Assembly: GCA_031255425.1 (NCBI GenBank)
Contig: JAIRSN010000228.1
Coordinates: 1 to 10,393, forward strand
DNA length: 10,393 bases
Source: Dysgonamonadaceae bacterium
Lineage (GTDB): Bacteria; Bacteroidota; Bacteroidia; Bacteroidales; Azobacteroidaceae
Reading direction: 5' to 3'
Position numbers and translations under genes: made by a program
Notes under the pieces: model-generated
The model's input: only the letters and a program-made list of their open reading frames with translations
The model's database searches: none
What the model was told of the DNA's origin: nothing
In this document: one piece after another, positions 2,327-10,393 of the stretch
How positions within the stretch are numbered: position 1 is the stretch's first letter
How the letters are laid out: each line of letters starts with the position of its first letter

Positions 2327-2365
2327 CCCGGGTGACCCGACAAACGTCCCCGGGCGTTTTTTTTT
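2327..2365 (+). terminator. Second terminator-like hairpin with T9 tail
   Basis: CCCGGG at 2327-2332 can pair with CCCGGG at 2349-2354, followed by CG and nine T residues at 2357-2365. It would back up the first terminator. CCCGGG is self-complementary and the left copy overlaps the first short palindrome of the array (centre 2334), so alternative folds compete. Confidence 0.45.
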
Positions 2366-2635
2366 GCTTTCGGGGTAACCCCGAAAACGTCCCGGGCAAA
2401 TTTTTACGGTTGTGGGGTAACCCCAAAAACGCCCCAGGCAAATTTTTACGGTTGTGGGGTAACCCCAAAAACGTCCCAGGCAAATTTTTACGGTTTTGGG
2501 ACAACCCCAATCGTAAAAAATTAACAGATTTTCGTTTTTGGGGCGACCCCAATGTCAAAAAATTAACAGGTTTTCGTTTTTGGGGAAACCCCAATGTCAA
2601 GAAATTAACAGATTTTCGCTTTCCGGGTATCCCGG
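2329..2635. repeat. Array of eight GGGG-NNN-CCCC palindromes, 42-bp period
   Basis: Eight short palindromes with 3-nt centres are centred at 2334, 2377, 2419, 2461, 2503, 2545, 2587 and 2629; all but the first interval (43) are exactly 42 bp. Cores are GGGG-TAA-CCCC (three copies), GGGG-CGA-CCCC, GGGG-AAA-CCCC, CGGG-TGA-CCCG and CCGGG-TAT-CCCGG; the copy at 2503 has one stem mismatch. Stem positions covary: the fourth pair from the loop is G-C in most copies but C-G at 2334 and 2629, and the fifth is T-A or C-G. Linkers are 31 bp. Those left of 2503 begin AAAAACG, while those right of it end CGTTTTT or a near variant, so orientation flips in the middle. The array fills the gap between the convergent HU and acyltransferase genes. 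Its function is unknown. Fixed linkers argue against CRISPR. A 14-residue coding repeat is the main alternative. Confidence 0.9.
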
Positions 2636-10163: not shown

Positions 10164-10205
10164 GGAAACAGTGTTTCCCCAAAAAATAAAAGCGGCGGCG
10201 CCGCT
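10164..10205. repeat. Two palindromes next to the 42-bp array
   Basis: GGAAAC-AGT-GTTTCC (10164-10178) and AGCGGC-GGC-GCCGCT (10191-10205) are perfect 6-bp inverted repeats with 3-nt centres, placed just before the first full repeat unit. They are not in 42-bp phase with it. The stretch 10204-10212 (CTGAAAACA) resembles the end of a repeat unit, so this may be a degenerate edge copy. Confidence 0.5.
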
Positions 10206-10212
10206 GAAAACA

Positions 10213-10393
10213 GACTTGCGGGAACTTCCGCAACCATGAATTCAGTTGAAAAGTGACTTGCGGGAACCTCCGCAACTAAGAATTCAGTTGAAAAGTGACT
10301 TGCGGGAACCTCCGCGACTAAGAATTCAGTTGTAAACAGACTTGCGGGAGCTTCCGCAACAAAGAATTCAGTTGAAAACAGACTTGCGGGAAC
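10213..10393. repeat. 42-bp tandem repeat array with internal palindromes (continues past window)
   Basis: Four full units start at 10213, 10255, 10297 and 10339; a fifth is cut by the window edge after 13 bases. The period is exactly 42 bp and units differ at only a few positions. Each carries two inverted repeats: TTGCGG-N6-CCGCAA (one arm varied to CCGCGA in the third unit) and CAACT-N8-AGTTG around a GAATTC, with the left arm altered in the first, third and fourth units. The sequence is unrelated to the 2329-2635 array, but the period and palindrome-rich design are the same. It lies upstream of the pyrH promoter. Total copy number is unknown because the array leaves the window. Confidence 0.92.

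Follow-up and report, generated by a model that had tools for sequence, protein, structure and literature searches.

The stretch of DNA analyzed here (the window; 10,393 nucleotides) contains two arrays of a Bacteroidales-wide kind of element, built of tandem 41–43 bp quasi-palindromic units that span about four helical turns each. Such arrays lie upstream of most genes encoding DUF6261 (PF19775) that could be tested, and the same kind of array also stands at other intergenic places in some genomes, as it does beside hup in the window. We regard the array geometry and its link to DUF6261 as nearly certain. The best reading of the element, which we hold with moderate confidence, is that of a duplex-DNA platform whose dyads share one face of the helix, with DUF6261 as its probable binder.

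The window corresponds to contig C212 in the source assembly (G000; 2.01 Mb, 274 contigs, 77% complete). By PorZ protein, the closest named kin of the host are MAGs called Dysgonamonadaceae bacterium and Candidatus Azobacteroides sp., which presumably come from termite guts. The features of the window arrays are collected in Table 1. The first of them, array 1, adjoins hup, and all eight dyad centers claimed by the initial annotation are present, with a step of 43 bp once, between the first two, followed by six steps of exactly 42 bp. In seven of the eight palindromes, a 3-nt loop is enclosed by GC-rich arms that pair perfectly over 4 bp, while the copy centered at 2503 carries an A-C mismatch adjoining the loop; palindromes of the same type (4-bp GC-rich arms, 3-nt loop) occur 15 times in the remaining 10.07 kb of the window. 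The arm changes described earlier were also read correctly (the fourth pair is C-G at 2334 and 2629, the fifth C-G at 2377 and 2629), and the loops do vary, as had been stated. On the minus strand, the linkers follow a fixed order, CGAAAATnTGTTAATTT then CGTAAAAATTTGCCTGGGACG, and this a-to-b order recurs in four further loci (L009, L011, L013, and L019). Because two linker types are present, TRF splits array 1 into two 42-bp arrays (2372-2510 and 2487-2622). There is one open frame per strand across array 1, at its 42-bp period. Array 2, which is cut by the contig end, was absent from the initial annotation and was found by TRF.

Table 1. Arrays, palindromes, and linker stretches of the window (central nucleotides of the palindromes in square brackets).
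Feature	Position	Strand	Description
Array 1	2329..2635	.	eight phased palindromes, 42-bp unit, two linker types
Palindrome	2329..2339		CGGGT[G]ACCCG; center 2334
Palindrome	2368..2386		TTTCGGGGT[A]ACCCCGAAA; center 2377
Type-b linker stretch	2387..2495	-	minus-strand reading CGTAAAAATTTGCC(T/C)GGG(A/G)CG
Palindrome	2413..2425		TGGGGT[A]ACCCCA; center 2419
Palindrome	2455..2467		TGGGGT[A]ACCCCA; center 2461
Palindrome	2496..2510		TTGGG[ACAAC]CCCAA; center 2503; innermost pair A-C
Type-a linker stretch	2511..2622	-	minus-strand reading CGAAAA(T/C)CTGTTAATTT
Palindrome	2538..2552		TTGGGG[CGA]CCCCAA; center 2545
Palindrome	2580..2594		TTGGGG[AAA]CCCCAA; center 2587
Palindrome	2623..2635		CCGGG[TAT]CCCGG; center 2629
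Array 2	10205..10393	.	42-bp unit, palindrome TTGCGG-GAACCT-CCGCAA; cut by contig end

Array 1 is one of dozens of scattered arrays in its genome. A DNA search returned 28 matches in the source genome, and of 58 genomes searched in this way, the source genome included, only the source genome matched. A covariance-model search of this and related genomes had been proposed in the initial annotation; one such model, R1, gave at least 126 matches on 35 contigs of the source genome among the 140 of 1830 candidates that were scored (adjacent matches share sequence, and some units were matched in both orientations), and a single weak match in the 37 other genomes of the genus (G008, E 8e-4). The claimed covariation of the arms is borne out by an alignment of 26 units from ten own-genome arrays (nine fetched loci and the window), in which several rows share one array and are hence not independent: two-sided changes occur in 12 of 14 pairs, 89.3% of the cells are paired, and the covariation score is 0.525, vs 0.223 for shuffled and at most 0.122 for slid alignments. 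Within one array the arms are largely uniform, and they differ among arrays, with GGGG/CCCC, GCCGGT/ACCGGC, GCCAAG/CTTGGC, and CCATGT/ACATGG among the types seen. Arrays with a period of 41 or 43 bp exist in the same genome (L020, L085, and L089).

The surroundings of these arrays are varied. The 31 own-genome array places, classed by a script that ignores genes shorter than 100 amino acids, include four between convergent genes, four between divergent genes, five between tandem genes, and 18 that are unclassifiable; counting hup (88 amino acids) moves the window array from the tandem to the convergent class. Confinement to convergent genes, suggested as a check by the initial annotation, does not hold for a genome in which divergent and tandem placements occur as well, and a cluster of intrinsic terminators was rejected on the four divergent places among the 31. 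A special tie to hup was likewise rejected, since hup stands beside the window array and different neighbor genes stand at other arrays. The earlier suggestion of a structured RNA made by read-through from hup is not supported: other neighbors were found at 18 own-genome loci, where they are listed as ORFs without Pfam assignment, and at 15 arrays of genomes G410 and G209. Further intergenic repeats recur at L009, L013, L019, L022, and other own-genome loci, namely AGTGTCTTTTATATTTTAAAG..., GCGGCTGCGCCGC, CCCGGGGCGAACGCCCTGGGC, and CTCATTTCTACCTAATTTTATAAAC.

The connection to DUF6261 emerged from relatives of the window arrays in the same genome. The gene beside arrays on contigs C60 and C163 encodes DUF6261; array 1 shares 87% identity over 293 bp with the array upstream of DUF6261 on C60 and 67% over 273 bp with the DUF6261-linked array of C163, while array 2 shares 72% identity over 186 bp with a 41-bp array preceding the DUF6261 gene of contig C47. 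Both window arrays are kin of DUF6261-linked arrays in their own genome. The array around the single R1 match in G008 has a 41-bp period and a sequence that differs strongly, and it too precedes a DUF6261 gene; the search was therefore widened by means of DUF6261 itself. DUF6261 has 14 matches in the source genome, and it was found in 13 of the 38 genomes of the genus and in 45 of the 392 sampled Bacteroidales genomes, about one in nine.

We collected 110 DUF6261 loci, consisting of the best-scoring matches and a hand-picked set of 40, which makes the sample non-random. Fourteen loci without 300 nt of upstream sequence or without a start were dropped, which left 96 loci from 20 families (48 genomes), all with 300 nt or more ahead of the start. 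Gene starts were assigned by rule, taking the ATG closest to a point 190 nt ahead of the domain, which makes distances to them approximate. Scanning 900 nt on either side with TRF for periods of 36–48 bp revealed a tandem array upstream of 75 of the 96 loci. The upstream periods are 41 bp (41 loci), 42 bp (31 loci), and 43 bp (three loci), with none at 36–40 or 44–48 bp. Downstream, over the same distance, arrays were seen at five of 83 loci (upstream vs downstream, Fisher p 2e-24). At least one upstream array was detected in 38 of the 48 genomes and 16 of the 20 families, and in the source genome all five testable DUF6261 genes have one. Among the 21 TRF-negative loci, nine reach an autocorrelation of at least 0.62 at a lag of 41-42 or 82-84, compared with none of the 21 at three other sets of lags and six of 83 downstream controls; 12 of the 96 loci have no array by either TRF or autocorrelation at this threshold. 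The distance from the end of the array to the start of DUF6261 ranges from 36 to 640 nt, with a median of 115 nt. In Prevotella nigrescens FDAARGOS_1486 (NZ_CP082843.1, K8O81_RS10460), a 41-bp array overlaps the annotated 5' end of DUF6261. In 20 further loci beyond the 96, where arrays were counted irrespective of their position relative to the gene, 14 have a 41–43 bp array (one being a redundant copy of L153), two identical copies have a period of 83 bp, and four have neither.

When 63 downstream and 75 upstream neighbors of DUF6261 were compared among themselves only, the largest shared family had six members; of all companions found, the array accompanies DUF6261 most regularly. Several DUF6261 loci (L113, L115, L124, L130, and L152) also have 69-bp tandem repeats nearby, which we guess may be within leucine-rich-repeat protein genes. 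A coding origin of the DUF6261-linked arrays themselves was rejected because periods of 41 or 43 bp, present in 44 of the 75, exclude a kept reading frame.

What the linked arrays have in common is geometry. A length of 42 bp corresponds to about four turns of B-DNA. The sequences of the units are mostly unrelated between DUF6261 loci and are alike only where the proteins are closely related: the mean unit similarity is 0.445 in the bins of low protein identity and 0.528 above 55% identity (12 pairs). Even between two DUF6261 loci of genome G342, which are 86.6% identical over 960 nt spanning the gene, the arrays are 69% identical over 180 nt. Dyad symmetry is kept nonetheless. The mean self-complementarity of the units is 0.576 vs 0.476 +/- 0.006. 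Taken one by one, many units show only weak palindromy (p<0.05 in 20 of 75; combined by Fisher's method, 3e-16). The second-best dyad lies exactly half a unit away from the best in 22 of 75 units, vs 2.5 +/- 1.7 in 200 shuffles. This second dyad indicates that symmetry runs through the unit, since in a periodic sequence full symmetry implies a second dyad.

A finer rhythm runs inside the units. In a Fourier analysis of 89 units, of which 14 come from the 20 further loci, the 10.4-bp component (a quarter of the unit) is the strongest for A (z 9.8), T (z 6.8), and purines (z 6.3), while AT content has no periodicity at 10.4 bp (z -1.1). Some other harmonics also exceed the shuffles, such as T at 41.5 bp (z 4.7) and purines at 20.8 bp (z 5.2). 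The autocorrelation computed over 75 units dips near 5 and 15 and rises near 10-12 and 19-21, being weakest for T; in flanking DNA it is flat, with an A power at 10.4 bp of 0.030 vs 0.054 in the units. When the 75 units were shuffled so as to keep their dyad pairs, the 10.4-bp component stayed (A z 10.2, T 7.9, purine 7.1), and dyad symmetry thus does not explain the rhythm. The leading idea of the initial annotation, helically phased dyads as a multi-site DNA platform, finds support at many loci besides array 1 in both sets of results: the 41–43 bp period extends to 16 of 20 families without the sequence being kept, and the internal 10.4-bp rhythm of the units adds further support.

A protein in contact with a single side of B-DNA would select for what is seen here: a period of four turns that persists although the sequence is lost, dyads spaced by two turns, and an A, T, and purine rhythm of one turn. 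We consider it likely that the arrays act as duplex DNA. Given how regularly the array accompanies DUF6261, we propose DUF6261, alone or in a complex, as the binder; that DUF6261 itself makes the contact has, in our judgment, an even chance. In the proposed mechanism, a dimeric protein, most likely DUF6261, would occupy one dyad after another on the same side of the helix, and the docked dimers would build a phased nucleoprotein stretch that may serve auto-regulation, silencing, looping, or nucleoid anchoring. The sequence could drift if array and protein co-evolve, or if shape and symmetry are what is read. Against the platform reading stand the 12 loci of the 96 that have no array, the weak palindromy of many single units, the other harmonics above the shuffles, the uneven dispersal with most arrays away from DUF6261 genes, the slight G-T excess, the 43-bp arrays beside a Y1 transposase at L245, and, for DUF6261 as the binder, its near-neutral isoelectric point and the weakness of its hits to other families.

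A broader interpretation, which we put forward tentatively and rate below even, is that DUF6261 and its array constitute a new class of chromosome-organizing or gene-silencing system in Bacteroidales. Under this broader interpretation, selection would act on helical placement, with dyads two turns apart and units of four turns, and would leave the sequence free. At each locus, array and protein would stay matched through co-evolution or shape recognition, and some symbionts would have seen their arrays spread genome-wide as scattered, centromere-like anchor sites. For DUF6261, a little-studied family, the array is the first strong lead: what usually accompanies the gene is repeat DNA with a physical invariant, the helical turn, and not a sequence motif, and geometry would be separable from sequence in DNA recognition. 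A literature search, conducted mostly outside subscription journals, returned no description of the arrays or of DUF6261.

Arrays also occur away from DUF6261 genes. We surveyed hand-picked stretches, 40 from 11 genomes with DUF6261 (797 kb) and 39 from 14 genomes without it (648 kb); DUF6261 was searched for in these 14 control genomes and was absent from them. Tandem loci with a period of 40–44 bp number 18 in the 797 kb and one in the 648 kb, and the arrays are thus concentrated in the sampled genomes that carry DUF6261. The 18 are distributed unevenly, with 11 in G209, two in G410, five in four other genomes, and none in the remaining five; the single array of the DUF6261-free genomes (L297) has no palindrome by eye. 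Seven other tandem loci were seen in the DUF6261 genomes, three with periods of 62-64, 83-85, or 127 bp, one of 169 bp, and three of 25–33 bp, and three of the seven periods are multiples of about 21 bp. In G410 and G209 together, 15 arrays were found with mostly unrelated genes as neighbors, one of them (L217) upstream of DUF6261. Most arrays in the G000 and G209 stretches do not adjoin DUF6261, and contig ends hide many of the G000 neighbors. DUF6261 may explain much of the 41–43 bp tandem repeat DNA in the genomes that carry it.

The dispersal of the arrays invites comparison with REP/BIME elements, a likeness already raised in the initial annotation. REP/RAYT elements are short intergenic palindromes present in many copies with a linked Y1 transposase gene (PMC3733652, PMC6006769), and REP sequences are described as tagged by GTAG or CGTC at one end (PMC3733652). 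If the arrays were mobile palindromes of this kind, copied by a transposase, their link to DUF6261 would be secondary. We regard this alternative as unlikely, but as the most probable of those considered. It shares with the arrays many intergenic palindromic copies of one family per genome and a linked gene, and the copies dispersed within the source genome would follow from it; so would the DUF6261-linked array of G209, which has a 77% identical copy over 233 bp elsewhere. Matches to Y1_Tnp (PF01797) and DUF6261 lie, by their coordinates, at most 1 kb apart in G410, G066, and G280, and G041, a genome that gave no DUF6261 match, has a Y1_Tnp gene between two 52-bp arrays (L238, 15465-17552). 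The 52-bp period of G041 is near five helical turns.

Against mobilization by such a transposase, Y1_Tnp was not found in six of the 14 DUF6261 genomes searched, namely G000 (77% complete), G008, G033, G016, G340, and G124, and it is present in the other eight. Of the earlier suggestion, the dispersal therefore stands, and the defining Y1 transposase was not found in the source genome, at its 77% completeness; RAYT as a mobilizer was rejected on the same search, which gave no match in this genome. Among 12 Y1_Tnp loci (L244-L255), only L245 has 43-bp arrays beside the transposase; L249 has only the upstream array of DUF6261 itself, L252 has 52-bp arrays, L254 has a 31-bp repeat, and the remaining eight have no repeat with a period of 15 bp or more. 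Furthermore, the partner here is DUF6261 and not a Y1 transposase, the tandem geometry of 41–43 bp is strict, and the DUF6261-linked arrays are mostly unrelated to each other, so that, unlike REP sequences, theirs are mostly not common between loci. REP/RAYT remains the closest known kind in dispersal. At L245 (G066 C9, 129296-132631), the Y1 transposase is flanked on both sides by 43-bp CCCCAGCCTGAAGGCTGGGG arrays, and a DUF6261 gene with its own 42-bp array is also nearby.

A second alternative, to which we assign a somewhat lower probability, is a structured RNA: transcription of the array would yield a row of hairpins, for example within the leader of DUF6261 or as an RNA that works with the protein. 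Stable folds are predicted for RNA from either strand of array 1 (z -5.85 and -4.46), and the position of the arrays upstream of the start codon, at a median gap of 115 nt, would suit a leader. In DUF6261-linked arrays, G-T mismatches slightly exceed A-C mismatches on the sense strand of the gene (72 to 45, p 0.016, a value uncorrected for related copies), as an RNA role would have it, but the two are equal in the own-genome arrays, at 10 and 10. Hairpins in RNA, however, would require neither the 41–43 bp spacing nor the 10.4-bp rhythm, and no curated Rfam family, and thus no known structured RNA, matched the window or ten array loci. The −7-like promoter motif of Bacteroidales is TA..TTTG. 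Between the array and the ATG, this motif occurs 17 times in sense and seven times in antisense, which would place some arrays ahead of the promoter, but the region before the array has the same bias (40 to 19).

Improbable, finally, is a selfish tandem duplication without function, its period inherited and spread by recombination with palindromes helping slippage: units are homogeneous inside arrays and turn over fast, as at the two G342 loci, but unrelated units have the same 41–43 bp period, half-unit dyads, and 10.4-bp rhythm, a geometry that inheritance alone would not keep once the sequence is lost, and two own-genome arrays arrive at 42 bp by different routes (18-nt palindromes with 24-nt linkers in L021, 19-nt palindromes with 23-nt linkers in L025).

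The closest known architecture is the centromere of the F plasmid. Its parS/sopC consists of twelve 43-bp repeats with ten 16-bp inverted repeats, bound by ParB/SopB (PMC6238139), and it shares with the arrays a nearly identical period and the same dyad logic. The arrays differ in being numerous within a genome and unrelated in sequence, and a Pfam comparison of six DUF6261 proteins gave no hit to a ParB model. Plasmid iterons are phased direct repeats of conserved sequence just upstream of rep genes, whose product is thought to bind them; the arrays similarly consist of phased repeats just upstream of a gene whose product is a putative binder, but here the sequence is free, dyad symmetry is kept, and the six DUF6261 proteins have no Rep match in Pfam. 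CRISPR loci likewise contain regularly spaced palindromic repeats, and were rejected as a parallel since the linkers repeat within the arrays, leaving no unique spacers. No known kind agreed with the arrays in all of its defining features.

The protein itself has no convincing related family by sequence comparison, and its hits elsewhere are weak. The best values were E 0.00066 in Pfam beyond DUF6261 (DUF5344, under its cut-off), E 0.001 in PHROGs (a sigma-factor family, aligned to 66 residues in a single protein), E 0.0016 in PADLOC, and E 0.022 in the PDB, and NCBIfam gave no family for two DUF6261 proteins. The predicted isoelectric point is near neutral, with a median of 5.99 over 98 proteins. 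A search of viral_contigs, with patterns taken from the C-terminal extension of the genus proteins and blind to most of the family, confirmed no DUF6261. Two unannotated 'Bacteriophage sp.' fecal contigs encode distant DUF6261 relatives; one has no tandem repeat with a period of 15 bp or more, and the other has 16- and 23-bp repeats only. Beside a 42-bp array of G209 (L220, 18112-18840) lies a gene whose 242-amino-acid product has a tail rich in lysine and matches nothing in Pfam, possibly another partner family. DUF6261 proteins of the genus often have a C-terminal extension of ~70 residues without a Pfam match (e.g., residues 240-309 of P0001), which looks Ig-like.
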